NCBI RefSeq assembly: GCF_963378085.1
Contig: NZ_OY726395.1
Span: 4,712,001 to 4,776,000 of the forward strand
Length of the DNA stretch: 64,000 bases
Direction: 5' to 3'
Source of the DNA: Mycolicibacterium sp. MU0050
GTDB taxonomy: Bacteria > Actinomycetota > Actinomycetes > Mycobacteriales > Mycobacteriaceae
The position numbers and the translations under genes are program-made. Positions 43,335 to 62,834 of this stretch are shown here, piece by piece; the first letter of the stretch is position 1; every line of letters begins with the position of its first letter. The notes under the pieces were generated by a model. It saw nothing but the letters and a program-made list of their open reading frames with translations, did not search any database and was not told the origin of the DNA.

Positions 43335-43380
43335 CTGACCTCCGTCGCGCCGCGCAGGTCACAGCCACCCGCACGGGAAA

Positions 43381-43393
43381 CCTAATATTTGTT
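43381..43393 (-). promoter_or_regulatory. Copy C of the shared 13-bp motif (RACARANNTTWGG)
   Basis: On the minus strand it reads AACAAATATTAGG, 3 bases downstream of the -10 box of the promoter for the substrate-binding-protein operon, so bound protein would cover the transcription start. It is an exact match to the consensus built from eight sites between 43.3 and 59.8 kb. Confidence 0.65.
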
Positions 43394-43396
43394 TAG

Positions 43397-43426
43397 ACAC
43401 TAGCGGCGCCGTCTCCGCATGGTCAA
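43397..43426 (-). promoter_or_regulatory. Promoter of the substrate-binding-protein/AveC/P450 operon
   Basis: Minus strand: -35 TTGACC (43426-43421), 18-base spacer, -10 TAGTGT (43402-43397), with motif copy C directly after it. The -35 box includes the stop codon of the CbbQ-type gene. The start codon of the first gene is 63 bases downstream of the -10. Confidence 0.6.
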
Positions 43427-44268
43427 TGGTTGGCGGGCTGCCCCAAGTAGATGTCGATCATCTCGTTCAGTCCGCGCAGGACCGCCGCGTCGTCGGTCAA
43501 CGGTCCGGCGATGGCCACCCGGGCGGCGTCGGCGATGGGCAACCCCTCGGCGATCAGACGACCGGCGGCGATCAACACCCGAGTCGAGGCCACCTCCCGC
43601 AACCCGCCGGTCTCGAGGCGACGGATCGCCTGGCCGAACCGCACCAACTCCACGGCGGTCGCGTGATCGACGCCCGACTCGTGGGCGATGATGCCCTCCT
43701 CCACCTCCGGCTCCGGGAACCCGAACTCGATGGCCACCATCCGTTGCCGGGTCGAGTCCTTGAGATCCTTCAGCACACTCTGATAGCCCGGGTTGTACGA
43801 CACCACCAGGCCGAATCCGGGCGCCGCCTCCAGCGTCACACCGAGCCGTTCGATCGGGAGTTGCCGCCGGTAGTCGGCGAGCGGGTGCAGCACCACGGTG
43901 GTGTCCTGACGGGCCTCCACCACCTCGTCGAGGTAGCAGATCGCGCCCTCGCGCACGGCGCGGGTCAGCGGACCGTCGACCCAGACCGTCTCGTCGCCAC
44001 GCAGCAGGTACCGGCCGACGAGGTCGGCGGTGGTCAGATCGTCGTGGCAGGCGACGGTGATCAGCGGCCGGCCCAGATCGTGCGCCATCGCCTCGACGAA
44101 TCGGGTCTTGCCGCAGCCGGTCGGGCCCTTGAGCACCAGCGACAGCCCCTGGCGGTAGGCCGCCTTGAACACGGTCTCCTCGTTACCGACCGCCCGGTAG
44201 TACGGGCGGGCGCTCGCGGTCTGCGGCTTCACACCGTTCTGGTAGGCGACCCCGGAATCATTCGACAT
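43423..44268 (-). CDS. CbbQ/NirQ/NorQ-type AAA+ (MoxR) ATPase
   Basis: 281 residues from ATG 44268 (MSNDSGVAYQNGVKPQ). Walker A is LKGPTGCGKTRFVE (48-55 core) and Walker B AICYLDEVVEAR (111-116 core); then SYNPGYQSVLKDLKDSTRQRM and a C-terminal helical domain. These MoxR-group ATPases team with a VWA protein to insert metal or remodel an enzyme, as CbbQ/CbbO for Rubisco and NorQ/NorD for nitric oxide reductase. The VWA partner is upstream (44458-46164), with a 21-codon gene between. The client enzyme is not evident. Motif copy F lies just before it. Confidence 0.92.
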   Translation of the reverse strand: MSNDSGVAYQNGVKPQTASARPYYRAVGNEETVFKAAYRQGLSLVLKGPTGCGKTRFVEAMAHDLGRPLITVACHDDLTTADLVGRYLLRGDETVWVDGPLTRAVREGAICYLDEVVEARQDTTVVLHPLADYRRQLPIERLGVTLEAAPGFGLVVSYNPGYQSVLKDLKDSTRQRMVAIEFGFPEPEVEEGIIAHESGVDHATAVELVRFGQAIRRLETGGLREVASTRVLIAAGRLIAEGLPIADAARVAIAGPLTDDAAVLRGLNEMIDIYLGQPANH

Positions 44269-44314
44269 CTAGATACCTTTCCTCGCATCGCGCGCTCCGC
44301 CACACGGCGAGCGC

Positions 44315-44327
44315 AACAGATGTTTGT
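44315..44327 (+). promoter_or_regulatory. Copy F of the shared 13-bp motif
   Basis: AACAGATGTTTGT, one mismatch to RACARANNTTWGG, between the 21-residue peptide gene and the CbbQ-type ATPase gene. It contains a perfect AACA-GA-TGTT dyad. It could control an internal promoter for the ATPase gene. Confidence 0.45.
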
Positions 44328-44328
44328 T

Positions 44329-44394
44329 TTAGAAGTTGGACGCCGCGAACGGGATGGGCCGGCGGTAGACGAATGCGTTGGTGCGACTGGTCAT
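44329..44394 (-). CDS. Candidate 21-residue peptide gene
   Basis: A 22-codon frame starts ATG at 44394 behind a near-ideal ribosome site (AGGAGAGGTA directly before ATG) and ends TAA at 44329. The peptide begins MTSRTNAFVYRRPIPF and ends AASNF. 19 of 21 sense codons end in G or C, as in neighbouring genes. The overlapping 67-codon frame (44258-44461) has many A/T third positions and looks non-coding. It lies between the VWA gene (63 bases) and the AAA+ ATPase (60 bases) on the same strand. The peptide is basic, amphipathic and has no signal peptide, Cys or Glu. I know no family for it. It may be a modified-peptide precursor, a small subunit of the VWA/ATPase complex, or a leader peptide. Confidence 0.6.
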   Translation of the reverse strand: MTSRTNAFVYRRPIPFAASNF

Positions 44395-44457
44395 TACCTC
44401 TCCTGTTGGTTGTCGAGCCTTGCCACCGAGGACAACTCGCCCTCAGGTCGGTGGTGT

Positions 44458-46164
44458 TCATGCCACGCGCCGGCGAACCTCCGCCGAACGAACGGCCGAG
44501 CGGAACATCGGTCCGATCACGCGCGCCAGATGGTCCGGCTGCGCGATGGTGGCGTGCGCCGTGCTGCCGAACACCCGACGCAGCGCGTTCACGTCGGTGC
44601 TGGCGCCGACGGTCAGGCATACACACCCGACGCCACGGAGGCGGGCCTCGCCCAGTGCACGTCGGGCATCCGCAGCGCCATAAGCCTTCTCGTAGCCATG
44701 GTCATAGGCGAGGCCGTCGGAAATCACGACCAGCAGCCGCCGCGACGTCCCGCCGCGCTGCTCCAGCACGGTCGAACCGTGCCGGATGGCCGCGCCCAGG
44801 CGGGAGTACGCGCCGGGTTCCAGACTGTTCAGCCGCCGCAGCACCTGGGCGTCGAGGTGGTCGTCGAAACGCTTGACCGGCACCATGCTCACCGCCGAAC
44901 GTCCCGACGAGTAGTAGCCGTAGAGGGCCACCCGGTCGCCCAGATCGTGCAACGCGACCATCAGGTGGGCAACCGCGACCCGCTGCTGCTCGTGCACCGT
45001 CCGGCCCACCGTGCCCGGTTCCGCCGTCGACCCGGAGATGTCGAGCAGCAGCAGCACCGAAAGATCGCGCTGCCGGCGCAGACTGTCGAGGTAGACCGCC
45101 TCGTCGGGCACCGAACCGGCGCGCACCTCGACGCGGGCCTCGACGGCCGCGTCCACGTCGATGTCGTCGCCCTGGGGCTGCCGGTGCCGTCGGTGCAGTC
45201 CCATCCCCAGCCGGGCCAACGGGCGTCGCACCCCGACGGCGCCCTCGATCTCCTGCGTCGCCGACGGTTTGATCTGCGCCTCGACCTCGCGGACGGTGCA
45301 CCAGTCCGGCTTGTAGCTGCCGTGCTCGGCGTCCCATTCCGGGTACTTGCGGCCGTCGCGCGCGATGTCGGTCACCTCATCGCTGTTCAGGGTCGCCAAC
45401 GACGCGACCGCGTAGGTCCCCCGTCTCGACGAATCGGTGCGGTGCGTGGGTGCGTCCGCTCCCGGCGGCCCCCCACCGTTGCCCCCGGTCTTGCGGGCGG
45501 CCGACAGCAGCTTCTTCAGCAGCTTGCCGATGGCACCGCCGCCACCGACCGGGCTGCTGAAGAGGTCCGGATCATCGGAGTCGTCGACCGCCTCGTCGTC
45601 GAGTTCCTCCAGCTCCGGTGGCGTGGACTGCTGCCGCGGGACGTGGCCCACCTGCTCGTGGTCGGCCTGCTTGGCCGTCGCGGCCGCGGCGGCCAAGATC
45701 TTCTTGGGCCGCAGCACGCCGAAACCCGAAGGTGCACCGGGGAGTTGCTGCCGCCCCCGGGCCACCAGCAGCGACGCCGCGGTGGAGTCGCTGAGACCGG
45801 CGACGACGGGATCGGCCAGGGTCGACAGGCGCGGGGGCAGCATCAGCCCGTTGGCGACCAGTGCGCGGTGCGCCTCCACCGCCAGGTACCGCTTGGCCAG
45901 CCGCGGGTGGCGCACCAGGCTGCCCACCACCGCGGGGTCCAGACTGTCCGCGGCGATCAGCGACGCGTGCACGGCGACCGAGGCCGTGTGCTCGGCCCGG
46001 GCGCCCGCCGGGTCCAGATAGATCGTCTGGCCGTCGGTCCACGACGGCGCCCCCGGCGGCGCCGGCGACACTCCGACCGGGCGGCCGGCCAACGCCGAGG
46101 CCAGCATGCCGAGGGATTGCAGGTGGGCACCTTCGCTGTCGTTCTGCACCGCGTCGTTCTGCAC
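44458..46164 (-). CDS. VWA-domain protein (NorD/CbbO-type partner of the AAA+ ATPase)
   Basis: 568 residues from GTG 46164 (VQNDAVQNDSEGAHLQ). The coding start is a 12-base direct repeat (46138-46149 and 46153-46164), so GTG 46149 is an alternative start. The middle is acidic and linker-like (TPPELEELDDEAVDDSDD), followed by a glycine-rich stretch. The C-terminal von Willebrand A domain has the MIDAS motif DISGS at 375-379 and ends RLLVVISDGLAYDHGYE. Together with the downstream CbbQ-type ATPase it forms a MoxR/VWA activation module. Motif copy D sits beside its probable -10 box. Confidence 0.9.
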   Translation of the reverse strand: MQNDAVQNDSEGAHLQSLGMLASALAGRPVGVSPAPPGAPSWTDGQTIYLDPAGARAEHTASVAVHASLIAADSLDPAVVGSLVRHPRLAKRYLAVEAHRALVANGLMLPPRLSTLADPVVAGLSDSTAASLLVARGRQQLPGAPSGFGVLRPKKILAAAAATAKQADHEQVGHVPRQQSTPPELEELDDEAVDDSDDPDLFSSPVGGGGAIGKLLKKLLSAARKTGGNGGGPPGADAPTHRTDSSRRGTYAVASLATLNSDEVTDIARDGRKYPEWDAEHGSYKPDWCTVREVEAQIKPSATQEIEGAVGVRRPLARLGMGLHRRHRQPQGDDIDVDAAVEARVEVRAGSVPDEAVYLDSLRRQRDLSVLLLLDISGSTAEPGTVGRTVHEQQRVAVAHLMVALHDLGDRVALYGYYSSGRSAVSMVPVKRFDDHLDAQVLRRLNSLEPGAYSRLGAAIRHGSTVLEQRGGTSRRLLVVISDGLAYDHGYEKAYGAADARRALGEARLRGVGCVCLTVGASTDVNALRRVFGSTAHATIAQPDHLARVIGPMFRSAVRSAEVRRRVA

Positions 46165-46197
46165 CGCGCACCTTCCCGGCGATCGACCATCGTGGGA

Positions 46198-46218
46198 CCA
46201 AATATCTGTTCCAGAGTA
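46198..46218 (-). promoter_or_regulatory. Copy D of the shared motif with -10 box of the VWA operon
   Basis: Minus strand: a TACTCT -10-like box (46218-46213) is followed after 2 bases by AACAGATATTTGG (46210-46198), an exact consensus match. A clear -35 is not seen. The site is in the 88-base gap between the divergent VWA and SDR genes and could control both. Confidence 0.5.
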
Positions 46219-46252
46219 GAACCTGAGACCCGCCGTTGGATAGCCTTTCGGG

Positions 46253-47227
46253 GTGATTGATTTCCGGGACCAGGTGGCGATCGTGACCGGCGGCGGCCGC
46301 GGCCTCGGCCGGCTTTACGCCCTCGACCTGGCCCGCCGCGGCGCATCGGTGGTGGTCAACGACGTCGGGGGCACCATGGCCGGCGTGGGGACCGACAGCA
46401 GCGTCGCCGACGAGGTGGTCGCCGAGATCGTCGCCGCCGGCGGCCGCGCGGTGGCGTCCTACGACTCGGTGGACAGCCCCGAGGGCGGCCAGGCGATCGT
46501 GGATACCGCGATCGCGGCCTTCGGCCGAGTCGACACGGTGATCAGCAACGCCGGCATCTTCAACAGCGTCCCGTTCGAGCAACTGTCCGCGCGGGATTGG
46601 CGACAGATGTTGCGGGTGCACCTCGACGGCGGGTTCTACCTCAGCCAACCGGCGTTCCAGGTGATGGCCGAGCAGCGGTACGGCCGGTTCGTGTTCATCT
46701 CGTCGTCCGCCGGCAATTTCGGCCAGCCCATGGAGGCGCATTATGCCGCCGCCAAGACCGGCCTGATCGGCCTGTCGAACGTCATCGCCATGGAGGGAGC
46801 CGCCCACGGTATTTTGTCGAATACCGTTCTGCCCACCGGGTTTTCCCGGATGGTGACCGAAACGGTCGGCGACGAGAAATTTCTCGCCGAGTCCGGCTTC
46901 ATGCGAGCCATCCGGCCCGAGCTGGTCGTCGGACTGGTGACGTTCCTGGCCAGTCGCGCCTGCGAGTTCACCCATCGCAACTACTCCGCCTGCGCGGGCC
47001 GCTATGCGCGGGTCTTCGTGGGCCTCGGCGAGGGGTGGCTGGCCGAGCCCGACCGCGCGCCGACGGCCGAGGACATCCACGCGAATCTGGCCGAGATCTC
47101 GTCGACCGAGAGGTTCATCGTCCCCGACTCGATCGTCGACGAAGTCCTGGAGGTGTGCGACCGGCTCGGCATCAGCGCCATGCCGGACGGCGCCGAGGTG
47201 GCGTTTCCCGACGCCCGCCCGCGGTGA
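46253..47227 (+). CDS. SDR family oxidoreductase (MFE-type)
   Basis: 324 residues from GTG 46253 (VIDFRDQVAIVTGGGRGLG). It has TGGGRGLGRLYALDLARRG, NDVGGTMAGVG, SNAGIFNSVPF, FISSSAGNFGQ and HYAAAKTGLIGLSN with active-site Tyr and Lys. It belongs to the same subgroup as the SDR at 3538 and the pseudogene at 36794. The TAGCCT box at 46241-46246 places transcription start close to the GTG, so the message may be leaderless. It diverges from the VWA gene across motif copy D. Confidence 0.9.
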   Translation: MIDFRDQVAIVTGGGRGLGRLYALDLARRGASVVVNDVGGTMAGVGTDSSVADEVVAEIVAAGGRAVASYDSVDSPEGGQAIVDTAIAAFGRVDTVISNAGIFNSVPFEQLSARDWRQMLRVHLDGGFYLSQPAFQVMAEQRYGRFVFISSSAGNFGQPMEAHYAAAKTGLIGLSNVIAMEGAAHGILSNTVLPTGFSRMVTETVGDEKFLAESGFMRAIRPELVVGLVTFLASRACEFTHRNYSACAGRYARVFVGLGEGWLAEPDRAPTAEDIHANLAEISSTERFIVPDSIVDEVLEVCDRLGISAMPDGAEVAFPDARPR

Positions 47228-47248
47228 TCGCCCTCCACGACTTCCCGG

Positions 47249-47261
47249 GACAAATATTTGG
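47249..47261 (+). promoter_or_regulatory. Copy E of the shared 13-bp motif
   Basis: GACAAATATTTGG, an exact match to RACARANNTTWGG, in the 116-base gap before the CobW GTPase gene. A TACACT -10-like box follows at 47300-47305. Confidence 0.5.
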
Positions 47262-47343
47262 CTCACCCGATCCTGACGTTGCCGGTTTGCCGCGACATCT
47301 ACACTCGGGGCGCGAAGCCGTCGGCAGTGGAGAGGGAAACAGC

Positions 47344-48387
47344 GTGGCAGCGGTGCCCGTGATCGTGTTGACCGGATATCTGGGTGCCGGCAAGACCACG
47401 TTGCTCAACCACGTGCTGCGCACCCCCGATGCGCGCATCGGGGTGGTCATCAACGATTTCGGTGAACTCAACGTCGACGCCGCCCTGGTGACCGGGCAGA
47501 TCGACGAACCCGCCTCGATCGCCGGCGGCTGCATCTGCTGTCTGCCGGACGAAGGGGGCCTCGACGAGGCGTTGGCCAAGCTCGCCGACCCACGGCTGCG
47601 CCTGGACGCCATCATCGTGGAGGCCAGCGGGCTGGCCGAGCCGGTCGCCGTGGGCCGGATGATCCGATTCAGCGGCGTCGACAACGTCCGCCTCGGCGGC
47701 GTGGTCGACGTCATCGACGCCGCGACCCACTTCGAGACGGTGGATCGCGACCCCACTCCACCGGCCCGGTACTCGGCGTCGTCGCTGGTGGTGATCAACA
47801 AGCTGGATCAGGTGGGCGAGGCGGACCGGGAGTCGGTGTTCGACCGCATCGAGGCCCGCATCCGCCAGAGCAACCCGGCGGTGCACGTGGTCGGCGCCGT
47901 CAGCGCGAAGATCGATGCGGCGCTGCTGTTCGACATCACCGCTGCCGAGGACCATTCGGGGCAGCTGTCGTTGCGTGAGCTCCTGCTCGACGAGGCGGCC
48001 GAGCAGCGCGACGGTCACGACCACGCCCACCCCCATGACGGCGCGCACGCCGCGTCCGTGACCGCCACCAGCACCGGCGACATCGACCCGGGCGCGCTAC
48101 TCGACCTGCTGGAGGAGCCGCCGGCCGGGGTGTACCGGATGAAGGGCGTCGTCGCCGTGCGCGCCCGCGATCGTTCGCGCCGCTATCTGGTCAATACGGT
48201 TGGCAACACAATCCACATCGCGGCGGCGCCGCCCAAGGCGCGCAGCAACACCCTCGTCGCGATCGGCACCGGCCTGGACCTCGACGCCGTGCGCGCCCGC
48301 GTCGAGAACGCGGTGCGCCCGATCGATGCGCCCGCGCCGGCGGCCGGGTTCCGCCGCCTGCAGCGTTACCGGAAGCTGAGCGTCTGA
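47344..48387 (+). CDS. CobW/COG0523-type GTP-binding metallochaperone
   Basis: 347 residues from GTG 47344 (VAAVPVIVLTGYLGAGKTT) with GAGAGGGA upstream. Walker A is GYLGAGKTT, the metal motif GGCICCLPDE has Cys63, Cys65 and Cys66, and a further EASGLAEP, VINKLDQV G-domain motif and a His-rich loop DGHDHAHPHDGAH follow before the C-terminal domain. Such GTPases deliver zinc, cobalt or other metals to client enzymes. Its place beside the VWA/AAA+ module suggests that all three serve a metalloenzyme. The apparent ORF start at 46597 lies in the SDR gene. Confidence 0.92.
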   Translation: MAAVPVIVLTGYLGAGKTTLLNHVLRTPDARIGVVINDFGELNVDAALVTGQIDEPASIAGGCICCLPDEGGLDEALAKLADPRLRLDAIIVEASGLAEPVAVGRMIRFSGVDNVRLGGVVDVIDAATHFETVDRDPTPPARYSASSLVVINKLDQVGEADRESVFDRIEARIRQSNPAVHVVGAVSAKIDAALLFDITAAEDHSGQLSLRELLLDEAAEQRDGHDHAHPHDGAHAASVTATSTGDIDPGALLDLLEEPPAGVYRMKGVVAVRARDRSRRYLVNTVGNTIHIAAAPPKARSNTLVAIGTGLDLDAVRARVENAVRPIDAPAPAAGFRRLQRYRKLSV

Positions 48388-48507
48388 CGTGCTTCGCCGG
48401 CACCGCCCCGGGCCACCGATCGGTCGGTAGACTCGCTGCGAGAATCCTCGTGCCCCAGCGCACCGGTGGGATTGCTGCGCGAAGGTAGGACGGGAGAGTC
48501 GGTAACC

Positions 48508-49791
48508 GTGCGAGAAGCGGTGAGCAAGACGACGGCGGTGGATGTGGCGGTCGATGACGCCAGTCGTCGCACCGAGATCTTGCAAACCGCCAACACCGTG
48601 ATCGCCAATTCGGGGTTGCGAACCTCGCTGCAACAGATCGCCGACGCCGCCGGGATCCTGGCCGGCAGCCTCTACCACCACTTCGAGTCCAAAGAAGCCA
48701 TCCTCATCGAGTTGATCCGGCGCTACCACGCCGAGCTCGACCGGATCGGTCAACGGGCCCTCGACGGGCTGGACGCTCCGAATCCGCGTCCCATCGACGA
48801 GCAGATCATCGAACTCGGCTGCGCCATCGCCGGATGCGCGGTGGAACACCGTGCGGCACTGCAGATGTCGTTCTACGAGGGACCGAGCGCGGACCCCGAG
48901 CTGATGGAACTGACCCGGCGTCGCCCCACCTCGATCCAGGCCGCCATGCTGCAGATCCTGCGGGCAGGCAAGTGGAGCGGCTACGTGCGGGCCGATGTCG
49001 ACCTGCCCATTCTCGCCGACCGGATCTGCCAGACCATGCTGCACGTGGGTCTCGACGTGATCCGCAACAACGCCCCCAGCGACCGGGTGGCCACCGTGTT
49101 CTGCCGGATCTTGTTGCAGGGGTTGGCCGCCGGCCAGCCCACCGACGCGGACCTCGACCGGTCCGCCGCGTTTGCGGCCGCCGACGACGTGGTGAACACC
49201 TGGGACGACGCCGATCTGGATCTCGACAACAAGGCCGACCGGGTGCGGGCGGCGGCGCGGGCCGAGTTCGGCCGGCGCGGTTACGAGACCACCACGGTGC
49301 GCGACATCGCCGCCGCCGCCGGGATGGGCACCGGCACCGTCTATCGGCTGATCGGGTCGAAAGAGGATCTGCTGATGTCCATCATGTTGGCCTTCGGCCA
49401 GCGGGTGGGTGCGGGCTGGACCGCGGTGTTGAAGTCCGACGCGACGCCGGTGCAGAAGCTGGACGCCTTGAGCTGGGTCAACATCAATGCGCTGACCCGC
49501 TTTCCGGACGAGTTCCGGATTCAGCTGGCCTGGATGCGAACATCACCGCCGGACACGCCAAACCCCGGTGCGGCCTTTTCCACCCGGGTTCGGCAGATGA
49601 AATCCATGCTGTCCGAGGGGATTCGGTCCGGCGAGATCGACATCGAACATCCCAGCGCGGAGATACTCGCCCGCTGCGTGATCGGCGTGCAGTGGATTCC
49701 CGAGAACATCCTGCTGGAGCTCGGCCCCCGCGGTTCCCTGATCCACGCGCGGGACACCGTCATTCGCGGCGTCACCACCCGCGAAGGCTGA
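48508..49791 (+). CDS. Mce3R-like regulator with two TetR domains (copy 1)
   Basis: 427 residues from GTG 48508 (VREAVSKTTAVDVAVDD), with GTG 48520 as an alternative. It has two HTH regions: LRTSLQQIADAAGILAGSLY plus HHFESKEAILIELIRRYHAEL near the N-terminus, and TTTVRDIAAAAGMGTGTVY plus RLIGSKEDLLMSIM near residue 270. Two TetR domains in one chain is the arrangement of Mce3R of M. tuberculosis (~406 residues), which represses mce3 and lipid genes. A close paralog is at 58191 and the mce operon lies between them. It probably binds the RACARANNTTWGG sites; its own upstream region lacks the motif but has ACCGATCGGT (48415-48424). Confidence 0.9.
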   Translation: MREAVSKTTAVDVAVDDASRRTEILQTANTVIANSGLRTSLQQIADAAGILAGSLYHHFESKEAILIELIRRYHAELDRIGQRALDGLDAPNPRPIDEQIIELGCAIAGCAVEHRAALQMSFYEGPSADPELMELTRRRPTSIQAAMLQILRAGKWSGYVRADVDLPILADRICQTMLHVGLDVIRNNAPSDRVATVFCRILLQGLAAGQPTDADLDRSAAFAAADDVVNTWDDADLDLDNKADRVRAAARAEFGRRGYETTTVRDIAAAAGMGTGTVYRLIGSKEDLLMSIMLAFGQRVGAGWTAVLKSDATPVQKLDALSWVNINALTRFPDEFRIQLAWMRTSPPDTPNPGAAFSTRVRQMKSMLSEGIRSGEIDIEHPSAEILARCVIGVQWIPENILLELGPRGSLIHARDTVIRGVTTREG

Positions 49792-49815
49792 CCGCCTCAC
49801 CCCACCGGGGTCAGC
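49787..49815. terminator. Possible bidirectional hairpin between convergent genes
   Basis: GCTGACC (49787-49793) can pair with GGTCAGC (49809-49815) across a 15-base loop that also holds CCCC-ACC-GGGG. It spans the stops of the converging regulator and secreted-protein genes. There is no T-run, so termination strength is uncertain. Confidence 0.35.
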
Positions 49816-50279
49816 GTGAAGGGCATCTCGATGGTCACCCACCGGTTGACGCCGCAGGCCCCGCTGGGGCCGACGGTCTTGTCCCAGCCGGTCAGCGCGA
49901 TGGGGTTCGACCGGTCCGGCCAGAATTGAAAGCCCTGTTTGCCCGGGAAGGTCGCGCCGTCGCGACATTTCAGCCACTCCGGCACGGTGTGCGACACCCA
50001 CCAATAGCCGCTGCGATAGGTCAGGTCGGCGCTCCACCCGTGGTCGCTGTCCACCCGCCCGGTGCAATCCAGATAGCTCTGGCAGGTCGAACTGATGGTC
50101 CAGGTGCTGATCAGCGCCGGCCGCTCCTCGAAGCGCTCGTTGGTCTTCGCCCACTGGCCATCGGAGACCGCGGTGTAGACGCCGTTGAGGGCGATCTCGT
50201 CGGCGCGGGCCGGTGCCGCACCCAGCCCGCCGAACACAAGGGCGCCGCACGCCAGCAGCGCTACTCGGCGGGTGATCAT
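49797..50279 (-). CDS. Secreted protein at the end of the mce operon
   Basis: 160 residues from ATG 50279 (MITRRVALLACGALVFGG), overlapping the mceF stop as ATGA. The signal peptide probably ends at APARA before DEIALNG. The mature part has STWTISSTCQSYLDCTG, YRSGYWWVSHTVPEWLKC and GPSGACGVNRWVTIEMPFTL, with four cysteines likely in disulfides. Mycobacterial mce operons are commonly followed by small Mce-associated exported proteins; this one does not look like the usual membrane-anchored Mas proteins. Its function is unknown. Confidence 0.85.
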   Translation of the reverse strand: MITRRVALLACGALVFGGLGAAPARADEIALNGVYTAVSDGQWAKTNERFEERPALISTWTISSTCQSYLDCTGRVDSDHGWSADLTYRSGYWWVSHTVPEWLKCRDGATFPGKQGFQFWPDRSNPIALTGWDKTVGPSGACGVNRWVTIEMPFTLTPVG

Positions 50280-51817: not shown

Positions 51818-52983
51818 CAGCCACCACCCGGGAAGTCGGGCATCGGCGGCGCCGGCACCGGTGACGGGGCGTCCGGGGGCGGCGCCGGGGCGGTGAGCGG
51901 GCTGGCGCCGTAGTAGGCCTCGTAGCCGGGGTCTCCGGGCGCCGGCACCAGGGGCAGCTCCGAGTTACCCCACCGTGTTCCCGCGGCGAGGCCCTTCTTG
52001 AGGCGATGCTGAGTCAGGTCGATGGTGACGAACAGGTTCATGTAGTCGCCGCGGATCCCACGGTCGATCATGTTCTGGCCCAGTGGATATACCGGAGCGA
52101 ATGCGATCGCGTCGTCGATGTCGGGTCCCACGTCGGCCAGCGCCCCGACCGTCGGGTCGAGGTTGCGCAGGTTGCGCAACAGGTCGTCCTGGGTCTCGTC
52201 GATCAGACCGCGCGCGGTGTCGGCGAAGACGCGCAGCTTGTCCAGCATCGTCGTGAACCGGGTCCGCTCCCGATTGAGCACCTCCAGCGCCGGCGGGATC
52301 CGCTCGAGCGCGGCGCTGACCACGTCGCGTTGGGCCGCCAGGGTGGCCGCGAGTCGGTTCATCGCCGCAATGGAGGCGATGACGCTGTCGCGCTGCGCAT
52401 CGAAGATCCCGACGAATCGGTCCAGCCGCTGCAGCAGGTCCCTGGCCTGATCGCGATTGCCGGCCAGGGCCGTGCCGAGATTGTGCACAATGTCGCCGAT
52501 CTGCCCGAGCCCACCGGCGTTGACCACCGTCGACAACGAGGCCAGTGTCTGTTCGGTGGAGGGATAGGCGCTCGACCGGCTCACCGGCACGGTGGCACCC
52601 GGTTCGAGGCGGCCCGCCGGCGGTTCACCCAACGGCGGGTCGAGCGCCACGTGCATCGAGCCGAGCAGGCTGGTCTGGCCGACCGTCGCCACCACGTTGC
52701 CCGGCACCTCGATGTCGGAGCGCACCGACACCTCGACGTTCGCCTGCCAATCCTCGAGTCGCATCGAGCGGACGCTTCCCACCACGACGTCGTCGATCAG
52801 CACCGGCGAATTGGGTTCCAGCGTCCCGACGTTGGCCAGTTGCACGGTGTACACCACGCCGTCGCTGCCGCGCCCCACCGCACCCGGCAGGGGCAGCGAG
52901 TTGACCCCGCCGAACGCGCACCCGGGCAGCAGCGCGCAACACGACAAGGCGGCGGCCCGGCGGAGCAACCTCAGCGATGTCAT
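51817..52983 (-). CDS. mceE: MceE family lipoprotein
   Basis: 388 residues from ATG 52983 (MTSLRLLRRAAALSCCALL), ATGA overlap with mceD. The lipobox is LLPGC near residue 22, so the mature protein is lipid-anchored, as in LprK-type MceE proteins. The MCE domain covers YTVQLANVGTLEPNSPVLIDD and VEVSVRSDIEVPGNVVATVG; long helices and a Pro-rich tail follow. It forms part of the Mce substrate conduit. Confidence 0.94.
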   Translation of the reverse strand: MTSLRLLRRAAALSCCALLPGCAFGGVNSLPLPGAVGRGSDGVVYTVQLANVGTLEPNSPVLIDDVVVGSVRSMRLEDWQANVEVSVRSDIEVPGNVVATVGQTSLLGSMHVALDPPLGEPPAGRLEPGATVPVSRSSAYPSTEQTLASLSTVVNAGGLGQIGDIVHNLGTALAGNRDQARDLLQRLDRFVGIFDAQRDSVIASIAAMNRLAATLAAQRDVVSAALERIPPALEVLNRERTRFTTMLDKLRVFADTARGLIDETQDDLLRNLRNLDPTVGALADVGPDIDDAIAFAPVYPLGQNMIDRGIRGDYMNLFVTIDLTQHRLKKGLAAGTRWGNSELPLVPAPGDPGYEAYYGASPLTAPAPPPDAPSPVPAPPMPDFPGGG

Positions 52984-54326
52984 GAGGGCGGGCCTCCCGC
53001 GAGGGCACCGCCGGGTTTCTGCTCGGCGGGCAGCGGCTCGGCCGGACCCACGGGGAGCAGGACATCCGGCAGCTGGGCCGGGGGCCCCATGCCCGGCGGC
53101 GGCGGCACGTCGCCGACGCCGGTGTAGGCAGACACCGCCGGCGTCGGCGCCGAGGTCGTGGGCGCTCCGTCGACCAGATGCGGTTCCGTGTAGATCAGCT
53201 GATGCGGCGCGGGCTGCGCCGTCAGCAGCGGGTTGAACGGAAAAGGTAGATAGTTGAAGCTCATCGAGCGCAGGCCCGGCCCCAGCGTCTTCGTGCACAG
53301 ATCGTTGGTCGCGGCCGCGGTCACGTTCTCCAGGGCACCGATCTGGCCGCAGATGAATTTCACCGGGTCGGCGAAGTTGTTCAGGGTGAACACGCCGCTG
53401 GCGGCGCCGGTCCGCGGATCGAACATGTTGTAGGCGTTGGCATATGCGGTGGGCGCCACGTGCAGGACTTCTTCGAGGTTGCGCCGGTTGTCCACCAGCG
53501 TCTGGGTGACATTGCTCAGCCGCTGCACCTGTTCGACGGTCTGCTCCCGGGTGCCCCGCACGAACCGGGTGACCTCGCCGATCACCTCGGAGATGTTGCG
53601 CAAGGCCAGGTCCAGGTCGGACCGGCTGCCGTCGAGGACGGCGCTCAGGGTGGCCAGCCGATCCTGGAACTGCACGATCTGCGTGTTGCTGTCGCGCAGG
53701 GTGCTGATGAAGGTGTGCAGGGCCTTGATGATGTCGGCCAGATCACCGCTGCCCTCGGCCAAGATCCGGCCGGCACCGGACAACTGGCGCAGAGTCTCCC
53801 GCAGCTTCACCCCGTTGCCGCCCATCGCGTCGGCCGCGCTGTCGATGAACCGGCCCACCGAGGTGTCGGACACCGCCCCGTCGGGACCCAGTTCGGTGGC
53901 CAACCGCATCACCTGCTCCTTGACCTCGTCCCACTCCACCGGCACGGCGGTCCGGTCCGCGGGGATCACCGCGCCGTCGGGCATCGTCGGCCCGGTCTCC
54001 AGGTAGGCCGGCGTCAACTGCACATACCTGGCCGCCACCAGATTCAGCGCGACGATCACCGCCTGGGCATCGGCCGGGATGGGCACGTCGCGGTCGACGT
54101 GCATCGTGACGCGGGCATGGGCACCGACTGGCTCGATGCCGCCGATGGTGCCCACCTTGACCCCGGCGACGCGGACGTCGTCGCCGGGATAGATACCGGT
54201 GGCGGTGCTGAAGTAGGCGGTGATGGTGTTCGGCCGGAACAGCGTGGCGCGCACCAGGACCGCGCACCCGGCGAGCAGCACGACGACCAAGACCAGCGCC
54301 AGTGGCCCACGCATGCGCGCGCTCAC
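52980..54326 (-). CDS. mceD: MceD family protein
   Basis: 448 residues from GTG 54326 (VSARMRGPLALVLVVVLL), GTGA overlap with mceC. The N-terminal helix LALVLVVVLLAGCAVLVR is followed by the MCE domain ITAYFSTATGIYPGDDVRVAGV. The C-terminal part NLPF-type signature is MSFNYLPFPFNPLLTAQP, followed by a Pro-rich tail. Length and position match the fourth gene of mce operons. Confidence 0.94.
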   Translation of the reverse strand: MSARMRGPLALVLVVVLLAGCAVLVRATLFRPNTITAYFSTATGIYPGDDVRVAGVKVGTIGGIEPVGAHARVTMHVDRDVPIPADAQAVIVALNLVAARYVQLTPAYLETGPTMPDGAVIPADRTAVPVEWDEVKEQVMRLATELGPDGAVSDTSVGRFIDSAADAMGGNGVKLRETLRQLSGAGRILAEGSGDLADIIKALHTFISTLRDSNTQIVQFQDRLATLSAVLDGSRSDLDLALRNISEVIGEVTRFVRGTREQTVEQVQRLSNVTQTLVDNRRNLEEVLHVAPTAYANAYNMFDPRTGAASGVFTLNNFADPVKFICGQIGALENVTAAATNDLCTKTLGPGLRSMSFNYLPFPFNPLLTAQPAPHQLIYTEPHLVDGAPTTSAPTPAVSAYTGVGDVPPPPGMGPPAQLPDVLLPVGPAEPLPAEQKPGGALAGGPPS

Positions 54327-55405
54327 CGCGGCTTCTCCGGGATTCCGTTGTACGGGAACGGGAATTCGGACCGCGGACCGACGTCGTCGGGCGGTTGGCC
54401 GGCGTTGACGCCGCGGCGGAAGCCGAACGCGTAGTCCAGGAACGGCTGCAACAGCGGCGGCAGGTCCAGGTTGGGGATGAACGCGGTGTAGAACGGTCCG
54501 CTGGCGACCGTCTCCCCCAACGTGACCTGGAACTTGGCCAACCCCGGCAACGCCTTGGCGATGTTTTCGCGGCTGCGCTCCAGCATCTCGGTCACCGCGT
54601 TCAGCTTCGCCAAGGTCGGGGCCAACTCCTGTTCGTTGTCGGCCACCAGGCCGGAGAGTTCCCGCGCGACAGCGGAACTGGCGTTGATGAGCTGGACGAG
54701 CTGTTGGCGGCGCTGGACGAGGATGTCCAGCAGATCGTTGGCGTTGAGCAGCAGGGTGTCGATCTGCTGACTGCGCTCCGAGAGGATTCCGGTGACCTTT
54801 CCGGTGTTGGCCAGCAGCTCGGTCACGGTGTCGTTGCGCCGGTTGACCGACTGCGACAGCCGGGACAGCCCGTCGAATGTCGGCCCCAGTTGCGGGGCGA
54901 CCCGATCGATGGTGGTGGCCAGGGTGTCCAGCGACTGATTCAGTGACTCGGTGTTGGTGCCGCCGATGTTCGTGGTCAATTCGCCCACCGCCTCCGTCAG
55001 GGAGTACGGGGACGACGTGCGGGCCAGCGGGATCACCTCCAGCGGGCGCATGCGGGACTCGCCGTCCGATTCGAGCACCAGCAACCGCTCGCCGAGCAGC
55101 GTCCCGGTCCGGATGTGCGCGGTGGTCGTCGAGCCCAGGGGAACCTTGCTGTCCACGGAGAAATCGACCCGGGCGCGGCCCCGCTCCAGCCTCACCCCGG
55201 ACACCGAACCCACCGTCACGCCCGCGATCTTCACCTCGTTCCCGGGGATCAGGCCGCCGGCCTCGGCGAACACCGCCTCGTAGCGCACGGCGCCGGCCCA
55301 GCTGATGATGCGTTGCGGCTGCAGTCCTATCGCGACGACGAGCACCACCAGGACCGCACCGATGAAGCCGGTGCGCATCAGCTGCGGGCCGCGGTATCGA
55401 TTCAT
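54323..55405 (-). CDS. mceC: MceC family protein
   Basis: 360 residues from ATG 55405 (MNRYRGPQLMRTGFIGAV), ATGA overlap with mceB. It has one N-terminal membrane helix, the MCE domain (YEAVFAEAGGLIPGNEVKIAG), long helical segments and a C-terminal PLLQPFLDYAFGFRRG region characteristic of MceC. It is an envelope-spanning part of the Mce importer. Confidence 0.94.
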   Translation of the reverse strand: MNRYRGPQLMRTGFIGAVLVVLVVAIGLQPQRIISWAGAVRYEAVFAEAGGLIPGNEVKIAGVTVGSVSGVRLERGRARVDFSVDSKVPLGSTTTAHIRTGTLLGERLLVLESDGESRMRPLEVIPLARTSSPYSLTEAVGELTTNIGGTNTESLNQSLDTLATTIDRVAPQLGPTFDGLSRLSQSVNRRNDTVTELLANTGKVTGILSERSQQIDTLLLNANDLLDILVQRRQQLVQLINASSAVARELSGLVADNEQELAPTLAKLNAVTEMLERSRENIAKALPGLAKFQVTLGETVASGPFYTAFIPNLDLPPLLQPFLDYAFGFRRGVNAGQPPDDVGPRSEFPFPYNGIPEKPR

Positions 55406-56430
55406 TCCGGCTCCGTGCAGCGGCCGGCTTCTTGCCGGAAGACCGGGAATTCGGCGGTCCGGTTCTGCAGATCCGAGATGCGGATCGCGATCGAACAGAT
55501 GTAGTAGTTCACGAAACTGCCGTAGGCGCCGATCCGGACCAGTTTGCGGTAGTTCTCCGGCGCCTTCTGCAGGGCCGTCTCGATGCGGTCCTTCTTCGCG
55601 TCCAGGGCGGGCGCGAGACGGTTGAGCTGATCGACAGTGGCGGCCAACGGCGGTCGGGCCTCGCCGAGCAGGTCCAACAGCGAGCTGGTGCCACTGCTCA
55701 GCGCTTCGATGGCGGCGCCGATCGGCTCCCGCTCGGCGGCCAAACCCGTGACCAACCGCTCCATTCCGTCGACCAGCGCGGAGAATTCAGCGCCGTCGCG
55801 GGCCATGGTGCCCATGGCCGCGTTCAGATTGTCGATCAGGTCCTCGAGGAGTTGACCGTTGTCGGCCAGGGCCGTGGTGAAACTCGAGGTGCGGGCGAAC
55901 AGCGATTCCGCGGTGCCGGCCTGTCCCTGCAGAACCTGGACCAGCGCGGAGGTCAACGCGTTCACGTCGGCCGGGTCGAGTCCCTGGATGACCGGTTTGA
56001 GCCCGCCGAGCAGGGAGTCGAGGTCCAGCGCACCGGCGGTGCGCTCCACCGGGATCCGGCTGCCGGCCGGCAACACCGCGGTGGGCCCGGGGCCGTCGAC
56101 GAGTTCCAGGTACCGGTCCCCCACCAGGTTGAGATAGCGCACGACGGCCGTGGTTCCGGCGGTCAGGGCCACCGTGCTGTCGGCGTCGAAATCCACCACG
56201 GCGGTCTTCGCCTCGGTCAGCCGAACCGCACTGACCTGCCCCACGCGGATACCCGAGATACGCACCGTGTCACCGGGTTCGAGGCTCGAGACGTCCTGGA
56301 AGACCGCGCTGTAACCGGTGGTGCTGCCGCCGCGGTACTCGCTGAAGATCATCACCATGAAGGCGGTGATCACCGACATCACGACAGCGAAGATCCCGAA
56401 CTTCCACGCCGGTCCGCGGGTGCGGTTCAT
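55402..56430 (-). CDS. mceB: MceB family protein
   Basis: 342 residues from ATG 56430 (MNRTRGPAWKFGIFAVVM), ATGA overlap with mceA. Membrane helix, MCE domain (YSAVFQDVSSLEPGDTVRISG), helical repeat region and the MceB-type C-terminus YGSFVNYYICSIAIR are present. It is the second Mce subunit. Confidence 0.95.
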   Translation of the reverse strand: MNRTRGPAWKFGIFAVVMSVITAFMVMIFSEYRGGSTTGYSAVFQDVSSLEPGDTVRISGIRVGQVSAVRLTEAKTAVVDFDADSTVALTAGTTAVVRYLNLVGDRYLELVDGPGPTAVLPAGSRIPVERTAGALDLDSLLGGLKPVIQGLDPADVNALTSALVQVLQGQAGTAESLFARTSSFTTALADNGQLLEDLIDNLNAAMGTMARDGAEFSALVDGMERLVTGLAAEREPIGAAIEALSSGTSSLLDLLGEARPPLAATVDQLNRLAPALDAKKDRIETALQKAPENYRKLVRIGAYGSFVNYYICSIAIRISDLQNRTAEFPVFRQEAGRCTEPE

Positions 56431-57662
56431 CCGGGCTGGCCGATCTGTGCGGAATTGCGTGGCGGGCCGTCCAGCGGTCCGAACAGGGCCTCTTTGAGCG
56501 CATCGGAGTTCCAGGTGATGCGCGGATTGTCGTAGCGCCACGGGTTGGCCCCGGTGTCGGCGACGACATAGGGGGTCCGGGTTTCGAACGGCACCTCGGG
56601 CATGTGCGTGCACTGCGGTCCGCCCTTGGCGGCCACCTTGGGCAGATTGGCCGGATACCGCCAACGCTCCTGTCCCCACAGGAATCCGGCGAGCACCTCG
56701 ACCCCGGGGACCGTCAGCGGGTCGGCCTGCGCCATCACCACCATGCCGCCCAGTCCGCAGGTCAGCGCCGGCCCGTATTGGTTGGTCAGGTCCGTGACGG
56801 GCGCCAGCAGGCGCAGGGTTTCCGTCAGCGGGCCGCGGTTGGCGCTCAGCACGTCGTTGCCGATGTCGGCCAGGCCGATCACGCTCACCAGCAGCGCATC
56901 CAGATTGTCCTGCTCGGCGACAATGCTGTCGCTGATCCGGCCGGCATTCGCGGCGGCGTCGACGAGGTCGGGTGCGACGTCGGCGAAGGTGGTCAAAACC
57001 GAAGGCAGGACGGCGATGTCGTGCGCCAGGCTGGGCAACTCGGGCTCCAGTTCGGCGAGCACGGCGTCGAAGTCGGCGATGGTTCGGCCCAGCTGCTCGC
57101 CACGCCCGTCGAGGCCGGCCGCCAAGGCGCCCAGAGTCTGATTCAGCTTCTGCGGCTCGATGACCGCCAACACCGCGGACAGCTTCTCGAAGACCGTGTT
57201 GACTTCCACGGTGACCCGGTCGGCCCGCACCACGTCGCCCGGCCGCAGCGGCGCCGCGGCGGCTGCGACCGGGGGCAGGAACTGGACGAACTTCGCGCCG
57301 AACACGGTGGATGACGCGATGTCCACCCGGGCATTCGCCGGGATCATTGCCAACCGGTCGGGGTCCATCGCCAGCTGGACCGCCGCGGAACCGTCGGGCC
57401 GGCGTTCGACGGCGGCGACGCGACCGACCTGGACACCCAGCATCTTCACCTTGGCGTCCGGATTCAACACCAGCCCGCTGCGGTCGGACAGCACGGTCAG
57501 CGGGACGCTTGCGGTGAAGCTGCCACGGAAGAACGCTGCCGTCAGCGCCACCAGCGCGACCATGCCCAGGACCGTCACCAGCCCGACGATCGGACGAATC
57601 AGGTAGTCGCTCAACACCGGCCTGCCCGGGTGGAACATCCGCGGCCGACCCAACCCGTGCAT
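56427..57662 (-). CDS. mceA: MceA family protein, first gene of the operon
   Basis: 411 residues from ATG 57662 (MHGLGRPRMFHPGRPVLS) with a GGGGGGAG site upstream. Membrane helix LIRPIVGLVTVLGMVALVALTAAFF, then MCE domain LTVLSDRSGLVLNPDAKVKM and SSTVFGAKFVQFLPP, and the long helical C-terminal region. In other mycobacterial mce operons two yrbE permease genes precede mceA; here the 528 bases upstream are non-coding and the next gene is a divergent regulator. A promoter with an internal motif copy is at 57840-57869. Confidence 0.94.
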   Translation of the reverse strand: MHGLGRPRMFHPGRPVLSDYLIRPIVGLVTVLGMVALVALTAAFFRGSFTASVPLTVLSDRSGLVLNPDAKVKMLGVQVGRVAAVERRPDGSAAVQLAMDPDRLAMIPANARVDIASSTVFGAKFVQFLPPVAAAAAPLRPGDVVRADRVTVEVNTVFEKLSAVLAVIEPQKLNQTLGALAAGLDGRGEQLGRTIADFDAVLAELEPELPSLAHDIAVLPSVLTTFADVAPDLVDAAANAGRISDSIVAEQDNLDALLVSVIGLADIGNDVLSANRGPLTETLRLLAPVTDLTNQYGPALTCGLGGMVVMAQADPLTVPGVEVLAGFLWGQERWRYPANLPKVAAKGGPQCTHMPEVPFETRTPYVVADTGANPWRYDNPRITWNSDALKEALFGPLDGPPRNSAQIGQPG

Positions 57663-57839
57663 CACGCGCTCCCCCCGGTCCCCGTCACCGCATCGAGCCG
57701 TGCTGCCGCAGCGCATCGGCGCCGCGGCCGTGGGTATCCGTCAGCGCGCGTTGATGTTTCGCCGAAGTGGACGTGAGCGGTCTCCATCGGTGGGGGGGTT
57801 CCGGACACGTGGCCGAAGTCCCGTGGGCTGAGCGTGCCG

Positions 57840-57869
57840 AGACTACGGCAGAAACAGATGTTAGGTCAA
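57840..57869 (-). promoter_or_regulatory. mceA promoter with shared motif copy A in the spacer
   Basis: Minus strand: -35 TTGACC (57869-57864), 18-base spacer, -10 TAGTCT (57845-57840). The motif AACAGATGTTAGG (plus strand, 57853-57865) fills the spacer and touches the -35, so binding would exclude RNA polymerase. Confidence 0.62.
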
Positions 57870-58027
57870 TAGGATGAGCGCACCGAGTCAGCGAACTCCG
57901 CCGGTTCCGCTGGGACCACGGGCGAACTTTGCTTATTTACGCATGTGCAGACACTTGGACCGGCGATAATGCCCTTCGGCCCGGACGGCTCCCGCTCCCG
58001 GTTCACGCGGCCCGCTGGACCATGCGC

Positions 58028-58040
58028 AACAAACCTTAGG
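58028..58040 (+). promoter_or_regulatory. Copy H of the shared 13-bp motif
   Basis: AACAAACCTTAGG, an exact consensus match, 150 bases upstream of the second Mce3R-like regulator; suggests autoregulation. Confidence 0.5.
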
Positions 58041-58190
58041 GAAGATGTCACGGGTAGCCGGCCCCAAGCCAGGTGAGCTGATCTGATACCGTTTGCCCTC
58101 ACTGCGGGCTCGCCGGCAGTGGTGTCATCGGCGCTTCGGTGGGACCGCGCGCGGCCCCACCGGCACGACTTCGGCAGCCTGGGAGGTGTG

Positions 58191-59531
58191 GTGTCGCTGC
58201 AGCACTCTGCCGACGGACCGGCGCCGGTGCCAGCCGGTGAAGCCGAGGCGTTCTCCGGGGAGAGTTCCCGGCGCGCCGAGATCCTGGCGACCGCCGAGGC
58301 CCTGATCGCCACGACGGGGCTGCGCACATCGTTACAGCAGATCGCCGGCGCCGCCGGCATTCTCACCGGCAGCCTCTACCACCACTTCGCCTCCAAGGAA
58401 GCGTTGCTGATCGAACTCGTCCGCCGCTATCACGCGGACCTGGCCGAGGTCGGGGCGACGGGACTGCGCCGCCTGGATGCCGCCGACGCGGCCGGCGTCG
58501 AGGACAAGATCGTCGAACTGTCGGCGGACATCGCCCGCTGCGCGGTGCGCAACCGGGCCGCGCTGCAGATGTCCTTCCTCGAGGCCCCCACGGAAAGCCC
58601 CGAATTGAAGGCGCTGCTGAGTCGACCGCCGGGCGCCATCCAGGACGCCATGGTGCAAACCCTGCGCGCCGGGCGCTGGAGCGGTTACCTGCGCGCGGAC
58701 CTGGACCTGGCTCCGCTGGCCGACCGCTTCTGCCAGTCCATGCTGCACGTGGGCCTCGATGTCATCCGGCGTGACGCCGCCCCGGAAGACGTGGCCCGGG
58801 TGCTGTGTCAGATCCTGTTGCACGGCCTCGCCGCGCGCCCTCCCGCCGACGCCGACCTCGACCGCTCGGCGGCCCGTTCGGCGGCCGACGCAGTGATCGA
58901 CCAGTGGGGCGACAGCGCCGACCCGGTGGCCGGCGGGCGCACCGGCCCCACCCGCCCCGACAGCGATGCCAAGGCCGACCACATCCGCCGGTCCGCACGT
59001 ACCGTCTTCGCGCGCAAGGGGTTCGAGCTGACCACCATCCGGGACATCGCCGCCGAGGCCGGCCTCAACGCGGCAACGGTGTACCGGGTGATCGGCGCCA
59101 AGGACCAGTTGCTGGCCTCGATCATGCAGGCCTTCGGCGACAAGATCAGCGCCGCGACGGCGGCCGCGCTCGATTCGGATTCCACCATCGTCGAAAAGCT
59201 CGACGCGGTGTGCTGGATCCACATCAACGCCGTGCTGCGGTTCCCCGACGAGTGGAAGATCCAGCTGGCCTGGATGCGCCATTCGCCGCCCACCAGCGAG
59301 AGTCCGGCCGAGTCGTTCGGGCAGCGGATGCAGGATCTGGCGATGCTGTTGATCCGGGGCCTACAGGACGGTGACCTGCGAGTAGACCCGCAGCCACCGC
59401 TGGACCTGCTGGCCCGCTGCGTCATCGACGTGCTGTGGGTACCGGAGAACCTGATCCGCGGACTGGGCGCCGAGGCCGCGCTCGCGATGGCCCGCGACGA
59501 CGTCATCCGGGGCGTCGCCGGCCGCGACTGA
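58191..59531 (+). CDS. Mce3R-like regulator with two TetR domains (copy 2)
   Basis: 446 residues from GTG 58191 (VSLQHSADGPAPVPAGE), next to GGGAGG; GTG 58188 and an upstream start at 58119 are alternatives. HTH 1 is LRTSLQQIAGAAGILTGSLY with HHFASKEALLIELVRRYHADL, and HTH 2 is LTTIRDIAAEAGLNAATVY with RVIGAKDQLLASIM. Long stretches match copy 1 at 48508 (for example LQMSF, SMLHVGLDVIRR, RFPDEWKIQLAWMR), so the two are paralogs. It is divergent from the mce operon, as mce3R is from mce3 in M. tuberculosis, and is the best candidate repressor of mceA-F and the nearby P450. Confidence 0.9.
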   Translation: MSLQHSADGPAPVPAGEAEAFSGESSRRAEILATAEALIATTGLRTSLQQIAGAAGILTGSLYHHFASKEALLIELVRRYHADLAEVGATGLRRLDAADAAGVEDKIVELSADIARCAVRNRAALQMSFLEAPTESPELKALLSRPPGAIQDAMVQTLRAGRWSGYLRADLDLAPLADRFCQSMLHVGLDVIRRDAAPEDVARVLCQILLHGLAARPPADADLDRSAARSAADAVIDQWGDSADPVAGGRTGPTRPDSDAKADHIRRSARTVFARKGFELTTIRDIAAEAGLNAATVYRVIGAKDQLLASIMQAFGDKISAATAAALDSDSTIVEKLDAVCWIHINAVLRFPDEWKIQLAWMRHSPPTSESPAESFGQRMQDLAMLLIRGLQDGDLRVDPQPPLDLLARCVIDVLWVPENLIRGLGAEAALAMARDDVIRGVAGRD

Positions 59532-59587
59532 CCGCCCCCGCGTCCCCGGCGACCACCGGCCGGGCCGAACCGGCCGACCGTCGCTGA

Positions 59588-59600
59588 AACAGATATTAGG
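59588..59600 (+). promoter_or_regulatory. Copy B of the shared 13-bp motif
   Basis: AACAGATATTAGG, an exact consensus match, in the 229-base gap upstream of the P450 gene, about 60 bases before its -35 box. With copy G it would give two sites at one promoter. Confidence 0.5.
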
Positions 59601-59659
59601 CCGTTCCCAGGGGCAGCGATGGCACGTCAGCACCGTGAGATCTACGTAGTTCCTAGCCA

Positions 59660-59708
59660 TTGACCGCGCCACGCCCGCGGCGCTACGGTGCTGAGAACAA
59701 AGGTTAGG
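59660..59708 (+). promoter_or_regulatory. P450 promoter with shared motif copy G
   Basis: -35 TTGACC (59660-59665), 18-base spacer, -10 TACGGT (59684-59689), then AACAAAGGTTAGG (59696-59708) covering the expected transcription start. This is the same geometry as at 43381-43426. Confidence 0.6.
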
Positions 59709-59760
59709 TTTTCTGGGATCGCCTACGGGTGGTCGGCGGCGGATGGAGCAGGAGCGCCTT

Positions 59761-62687: not shown

Positions 62688-62717
62688 TATCGAATTTGCC
62701 CGCCAAAGGAGGCAGCC

Positions 62718-62834
62718 GTGGGCGCACTCGTCATGCTCGGCACACTTTTCGGCCTGATCGTCCTGATCGTGGGATTGGTGCTCTATTTCGATCCGGAGGC
62801 CCGCGGTGCCGTGCGCCCGGAGGTCGAGCAGTGA
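62718..62834 (+). CDS. 38-residue single-pass membrane protein
   Basis: 38 residues from GTG 62718 with a near-perfect AAAGGAGG site 5 bases before it. It is one hydrophobic helix, VMLGTLFGLIVLIVGLVLYF, followed by a short charged tail (DPEARGAVRPEVEQ). The stop overlaps the AveC-like gene as GTGA, so the two are co-translated and may form a complex. A 93-residue ORF starting at 62553 would cross the operator and is rejected. No family recognised. Confidence 0.75.
   Translation: MGALVMLGTLFGLIVLIVGLVLYFDPEARGAVRPEVEQ

Follow-up and report, generated by a model that had tools for sequence, protein, structure and literature searches.

A conserved 16-bp operator-like site and the putative regulon of a double-TetR regulator family in Mycolicibacterium

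A 64,000-nucleotide stretch of the genome of Mycolicibacterium sp. MU0050 (contig NZ_OY726395.1, positions 4,712,001 to 4,776,000; hereafter, the window) carries a set of operator-like sites, and with them a regulon, that is real and well conserved. Judged from sequence, the 16-bp block common to these sites, GAACARATATTWGGTY, is very probably the operator of a self-regulating family of double-TetR repressors, represented in the window by the regulator T1 and its paralogue T2. The promoters covered are those of a run of genes leading from a periplasmic-binding-protein-like gene (pbp) to a cytochrome P450, of a CbbQ/NorQ-type ATPase gene (cbbQ), of a gene for a VWA-domain protein (vwa), of a divergent short-chain dehydrogenase/reductase (SDR) gene, of an mce gene run, and of a second P450 gene (Table 1). 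An earlier note on this DNA had described eight copies of a 13-bp motif, RACARANNTTWGG, as the mark of a regulon of Mce3R type, with a tandem-TetR protein as its likely reader.

Occurrence of the motif in the window and the genome

Seven exact copies of RACARANNTTWGG are present in the window (starts and strands 43381-, 46198-, 47249+, 57853+, 58028+, 59588+, and 59696+), compared with a mean of 0.01 and a maximum of 1 in 100 dinucleotide shuffles. All eight sites of the earlier note were recovered, the eighth, at 44315, with one mismatch to the 13-mer, and its estimate of about 0.2 chance hits proved cautious. When one mismatch was allowed, the window gave 11 matches where 1.14 were expected, the additional ones besides 44315 lying at 14665, 27732, and 35448. 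Across the whole genome (5,224,726 bases in two contigs), the exact 13-mer occurs only in these seven copies and the reversed pattern once; the first ground for refutation named in the earlier note, a motif equally common in unrelated intergenic regions, is thus not borne out. With at most two mismatches to the 16-mer, there are seven matches in the genome, six inside the window and one at 5,148,267. Chance as the source of the motif is ruled out by the shuffles, by the genome scan, and by the related loci described below.

The single match outside the window, GAACAGGTGTTTGGTT (G000:C1:5148267-5148282, two mismatches), is a possible additional member of the regulon.

Conservation at related loci and shape of the operator

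Related loci were collected in one scan of named genomes as the best 80 of 186 relatives of T1, and include those of Nocardia vinacea, N. pseudovaccinii, and two Aldersonia; presence of the T1 family in 80 of 80 loci holds by construction, T1 having been the query. These loci contain 204 motif copies against 2 copies of the reversed pattern (both in L110), with at least one copy in 78 of the 80 loci, at least two in 70, and at least three in 46. The copies lie mostly upstream of the same genes. Classified by the genes that start within 450 bp downstream, 59 sites precede pbp alone, 48 T1 alone, 33 SDR and vwa together, and 22 vwa alone, with cbbQ (below) and smaller classes making up the rest. 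For 16 of the 204 asymmetric sites, no relative of a window gene is in range; ten open reading frames (ORFs) scanned in the neighborhood of nine of these encode three luciferase-like monooxygenases, four DAP_DH_C-type dehydrogenases, and one each of an acyl-CoA dehydrogenase, an amidohydrolase, and an alkylsulfatase-like protein. In the window, a candidate operator sits in the mceA promoter. Across the 80 loci, mceA is within reach in 5, compared with 65 each for pbp and cbbQ (10-kb flanks, contig ends limiting the reach), and mce is therefore not the core of the regulon. A gene for a DAP_DH_C-type dehydrogenase lies ahead of mceA in L094 and L101.

The 204 sites and their flanks define a conserved block of 16 bp, wider than the 13 bp originally delimited: T stands at position 14 in 197 of 204 sites, T or C at position 15 in 196, and G at position 0 in 153. 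The block is nearly identical to its own reverse complement and thus quasi-palindromic, and its frame is that of the KstR2 box; we call its halves the A-half and the C-half. A second scan of the related loci, in which the requirement for asymmetry was dropped, yielded 288 sites compared with 24 in the control; by the A/C position of their halves, 204 were A+C, 45 A+A, 6 C+C, and 33 other. The commonest half-sites were AACAAA (170), ACCAAA (131), AACAGA (117), and ACCTAA (92). At the fourth place, T is tied to the C-half, AACTAA being absent among the 16 commonest half-sites, and G at the fifth place is frequent in A-halves but rare in C-halves (ACCAGA, 8). Since these differences are linked at more than one position, they point to two types of half-site, as two unlike reading heads would need. 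Among the 43 symmetric sites, 42 precede cbbQ, where a further 8 sites are asymmetric. The window site at 44315, which has three mismatches to the 16-mer, might have been taken for a decayed copy; this was rejected, as it is the symmetric form, AACAGATGTTTGTT, that is conserved at cbbQ promoters elsewhere.

The frame of the operator raises the question of KstR2 (Rv3557c), whose box is given as AnCAAGnnCTTGnT (PMC3068626) or AAGCAAGNNCTTGCTT (PMC8228715). The two systems share the 16-bp frame and the half-site frame as well as the use of one site for divergent promoters, and HTH1, the first of the two helix-turn-helix units (HTHs), carries the KstR2-like recognition segment GIL-x-GSLYHHF. The sites could thus be operators of KstR2, or of another single-chain TetR homodimer, with T1 and T2 as bystanders, a reading that the existence of a symmetric form and of a gene with a KstR2-like HTH at 430 kb in this genome would suit. 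However, the exact box AnCAAGnnCTTGnT occurs at five places in the genome, three of them within about 8 kb of that gene, and at none in the window. Next to the center, moreover, the KstR2 box has G/C (G where the present sites have A). Most loci have sites at the promoters of T1-family genes, with the proviso that T1 served as the query. In KstR2, a single TetR unit acts as a homodimer, whereas T1 and T2 hold two TetR_N units each. We consequently give this alternative a small chance, and retain the double-TetR family as the probable reader.

Promoter registers and orientation of the sites

The three TTGACC-N18-TAnnnT cores reported earlier, at the pbp operon and mceA on the minus strand and at the P450 gene on the plus strand, can all be read from the sequence. 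In the related loci, cores were sought as TTGACN-N16-19-TANNNT, with each site-gene pair counted once and a background of 0.010 per stretch. A core was present in 59 of 60 vwa pairs, 59 of 60 pbp pairs, and all 35 SDR pairs, and the offset of the -10 box was nearly constant (-8 in 57 vwa pairs, -9 in 50 pbp pairs, and +19 in 33 SDR pairs). With the -35 box relaxed to TTGANN, 48 of 50 cbbQ pairs showed a core with the site in its spacer, and in 44 of 54 T1 pairs a TANNNT lies just upstream of the site; among the p450a pairs, four of six fit neither of the registers that emerge. These registers are two. In the +1 register, the site begins directly behind the -10 box and lies over the start of transcription; in the other, it overlaps the -35 box and spacer. 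Both positions would block the polymerase, which fits repression.

The fixed spacing to the -35 and -10 boxes would also suit an activator site or, with an alternative sigma factor, an extended promoter signal. Either is difficult to reconcile with the use of two opposite registers, with one site serving two divergent promoters, and with the TTGAC and TAnnnT boxes that exist besides the site at vwa, pbp, and SDR; we therefore think it a slight chance, and a repressor operator the better description.

The sites are, furthermore, consistently oriented. The A-half comes first in all 166 asymmetric pairs of the +1 register and the C-half in all 46 of the -35/spacer register, such that every one of the 212 classified pairs has its A-half toward the -10 box, with 18 further pairs in neither register. 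These 212 are not independent, given the sites common to vwa and SDR and the common descent of orthologues, and we judge that they represent some six to ten independent promoters. In the spacer register, orientation is partly forced, because the letters GACC of the C-half form the end of TTGACC, an overlap that leaves the rule unexplained for the +1 register of pbp and T1. It is tempting, if just short of probable, to regard the operator as polar, with the KstR2-like HTH1 reading the A-half and HTH2 the C-half, and with a direction that evolution has set by the promoter, the A-half pointing to the -10 box whichever the register. On this view, the fusion of two TetR units would have made an oriented operator out of a symmetric KstR2-type box, and the symmetric sites at cbbQ would belong to the same regulon with a different affinity.

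The T1/T2 family and its relation to Mce3R

T1 and T2 each contain two TetR_N domains and are 56% identical to one another. The structure model of T1 is a full-length double-TetR fold like that of Mce3R (PDB 9b7y), and T2 is assigned by its sequence similarity to T1. In 29 loci of other genomes, the relatives are 60-71% identical to T1 and 54-58% to T2, which identifies T1 as the conserved member and T2 as a divergent paralogue. Of 148 genomes of the genus, 91, among them the present one, contain relatives (E <=1e-60); in a 201-genome sample of the taxonomic family, 15 genomes do, 13 of them of the window's genus and 2 of one other genus. As is characteristic of TetR-family repressors, the sequence offers a TetR_N HTH together with candidate operators that overlap both the target promoters and the family's own.

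Motif copies go with this family among the 148 genomes, averaging 6.13 per genome where a T1/T2-family gene is present (n=91, none with zero) and 1.75 where it is not (n=57, 18 with zero), while the reversed control averages 2.22 and 1.86; the Mann-Whitney P, which ignores kinship, is 1e-18 for the motif and 0.14 for the control. The view that a tandem-TetR protein probably reads the motif is supported. Orthologues of Mce3R, at E 1e-110, occur in 69 of 396 genomes, this genome not among them. With the 148 taken as part of the 396, consistent with the rows listed, copies average 6.52 in the 23 genomes that have both, 6.00 in the 68 with the T family alone, 0.75 in the 4 with Mce3R alone, and 1.83 in the 53 with neither.

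According to PMC11667970, Mce3R (Rv1963c) of Mycobacterium tuberculosis represses an mce operon and lipid-related genes, binds 25-bp nonpalindromic sites, and is the first double-TetR repressor with a structure; such repressors are infrequent in bacterial genomes, with 204 predicted in actinomycetes. The label 'Mce3R-type' given to the regulon in the earlier note is apt for the modeled fold of T1, but not for Mce3R itself. T1 and T2 match it at E 4e-12 and 1e-7, T1 shares 17% identity with it in the structural alignment, and they are not orthologous to it. Two other tandem TetRs of this genome match it over nearly the whole length, at 2e-37 and 4e-34. Compared by description rather than by letters, the 25-bp nonpalindromic operator of Mce3R also differs from the 16-bp quasi-palindrome found here. 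In addition, the gene for Mce3R lies beside yrbE3A of an mce operon, whereas none of the genome's 32 MlaE/YrbE stretches falls inside the window. In a tree of TetR halves, the two other genes, and not T1 and T2, group with Mce3R; its deep forks are weak and its branches long, and extraction lost two of four Mce3R orthologues and four of seven single TetRs.

A role for Mce3R, or for close relatives of it encoded elsewhere in the genome, as the reader of the sites, which the common fold and the repression of an mce operon and lipid-related genes by Mce3R (PMC11667970) might suggest, is the faintest chance of those considered, and is in effect ruled out by the 16-mer scan of the genome (no copy at the relatives at 3.92 and 4.10 Mb, exact or with <=3 mismatches), by the flanks of 30 Mce3R orthologues (0 copies in 122,327 bp, 1.5 kb on each side), and by the genome split above (0.75 against 6.00 copies). 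In the genomes searched, the best match to Mce3R was 87%, and M. tuberculosis itself was not recognized among them.

The two Mce3R-nearer tandem TetRs (L157:750-1976 and L158:440-1681; 409 and 414 aa) lie at 3.92 and 4.10 Mb; next to the one at 3.92 Mb are two MlaE/YrbE genes, an arrangement also seen for Mce3R.

Discussion

We infer that T1, and T2 near it, bind the 16-bp sites as single chains. One chain would fold as an intramolecular TetR 'pair' and place its two HTHs on the two half-sites of one operator, HTH1 on the A-half through its KstR2-like recognition segment and HTH2 on the C-half. A protein bound over the start site or the -35/spacer region would block RNA polymerase at the targets and at its own promoter, until a ligand from the substrate pathway, probably lipid-like, releases it. 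The P450s, alcohol and aldehyde dehydrogenases, binding protein, and Mce proteins suggest a pathway that takes up a hydrophobic substrate and oxidizes it step by step. Proteins of the CbbQ and VWA types usually cooperate as an activating chaperone pair.

A number of observations weigh against a double-TetR operator as proposed here. With <=3 mismatches, the 16-mer has 27 matches in the genome and its reversed control 12, and the T2 site at 58028 exceeds even this limit, being poor beyond the 13-mer. T1 promoters mostly lack a TTGAC -35 box (core in 3 of 54 pairs), and neither register accommodates the two mceA pairs of other loci. No clear core promoter in register accompanies the cbbQ, cobW, or T2 site of the window, where the -35 boxes of vwa and SDR are degenerate. 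Five of the 16 sites lacking a recognized target fall within a predicted ORF. KstR2 aligns structurally to the second half of the T1 model and not to the first. The A/C position also varies among the KstR2-type boxes of the genome, and the symmetric A/A cbbQ sites show that a C-half is not obligatory; asymmetry alone is therefore no proof of two different HTHs, and the earlier note, while right that unlike half-sites suit unlike HTHs, overstated the asymmetry of what is a near-palindrome. Finally, because T1 sits in the target cluster, co-occurrence cannot separate a motif that follows the regulator from one that follows the targets, and 7 of the 57 family-less genomes carry at least four copies (G005, G025, G033, G040, G068, G074, and G147), a renewed search of six of them (not G074) giving two weak, half-length matches.

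The pbp site and all four T2-side sites (57853, 58028, 59588, and 59696) end in TTAGG, and the vwa/SDR and cobW sites in TTTGG. The second recognition helix of T2 also differs from that of T1, and a sub-specialization of the two regulators is possible.

In the literature searched on tandem or double TetR, Mce3R, AveC, CYP150, and CbbQ in mycobacteria, no study of this regulon was found. For an M. avium isolate, the available text of one source mentions a spirocyclase, a P450, an SDR, an aldehyde dehydrogenase, two TetRs, and a CbbQ gene, with no account of regulation in that text (PMC10876796). T1 and T2 represent a second family of double-TetR regulators, separate from Mce3R, that combines the predicted fold of Mce3R with a probable KstR2-framed site and may or may not share its fusion event. 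The sharply defined operator, the conserved target promoters, and the comparison of symmetric and asymmetric sites within one regulon make it possible to test what advantage a fused TetR with two heads has over a homodimer. They also provide a candidate regulator for an unstudied cluster of P450s, an aldehyde dehydrogenase, a mycofactocin-coupled SDR, a CbbQ/VWA pair, and a yrbE-less mce run.

Features of the window

Table 1. Candidate operators and genes of the putative regulon, in window coordinates.
Feature	Coordinates	Strand	Evidence
pbp operator, +1 register, for the pbp-aveC-SDR-aldehyde dehydrogenase-P450 run	43379..43394	-	13-mer 43381-43393; TTGACC 43421-43426, TAGTGT 43397-43402
Symmetric (A/A) operator AACAGATGTTTGTT (44315-44328) before cbbQ	44314..44329	.	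motif scan
Operator GAACAGATATTTGGTC common to divergent vwa (-) and SDR (+)	46196..46211	-	motif and promoter scan
Operator before cobW, by probable co-transcription also for T1	47248..47263	+	motif; 78-bp cobW-T1 gap
Operator in mceA promoter spacer	57852..57867	+	TTGACC 57864-57869, TAGTCT 57840-57845, minus strand
Site before T2	58027..58042	+	13-mer exact, outer positions poor
First site before CYP150-like P450	59587..59602	+	motif scan
Second site before CYP150-like P450, +1 register	59695..59710	+	TTGACC 59660-59665, TACGGT 59684-59689
T1, tandem-TetR regulator, 441 aa, conserved family member	48466..49791	+	domain scan, homologues, structure model
T2, paralogous tandem-TetR regulator	58119..59531	+	longest ORF 470 aa; true start probably further in
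pbp, periplasmic-binding-protein-like, first target gene of its run	42216..43334	-	
AveC-like gene	41033..42184	-	
SDR gene (longest ORF)	40024..41244	-	
Aldehyde dehydrogenase	38547..40040	-	
Cytochrome P450	37302..38519	-	
CbbQ/NorQ-type AAA ATPase	43423..44268	-	
VWA-domain protein	44458..46164	-	
SDR divergent from vwa	46253..47227	+	
CobW-family GTPase	47344..48387	+	
mceF to mceA gene run, no yrbE gene in window	50276..57716	-	
P450 close to CYP150A6	59743..61029	+	full-length match to PDB 6dcd, 560 bits
Mycofactocin-coupled SDR behind P450	61054..61932	+	330 bits, cut-off 300

The likeness of the P450 at 59743-61029 to CYP150A6 concerns the enzyme only. A relative of cobW was matched in 0 of the 80 related loci, and its position between the operator and T1 may reflect a lineage insertion that put cobW under the regulator. 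Between vwa and cbbQ, a 21-aa ORF (44329-44394, minus strand) has a good ribosome-binding site and ends at the cbbQ operator; a short peptide pattern for it matched in 0 of the 80 loci. A second AveC-like gene lies at 62696-63616, past the P450/SDR pair and a single TetR gene.

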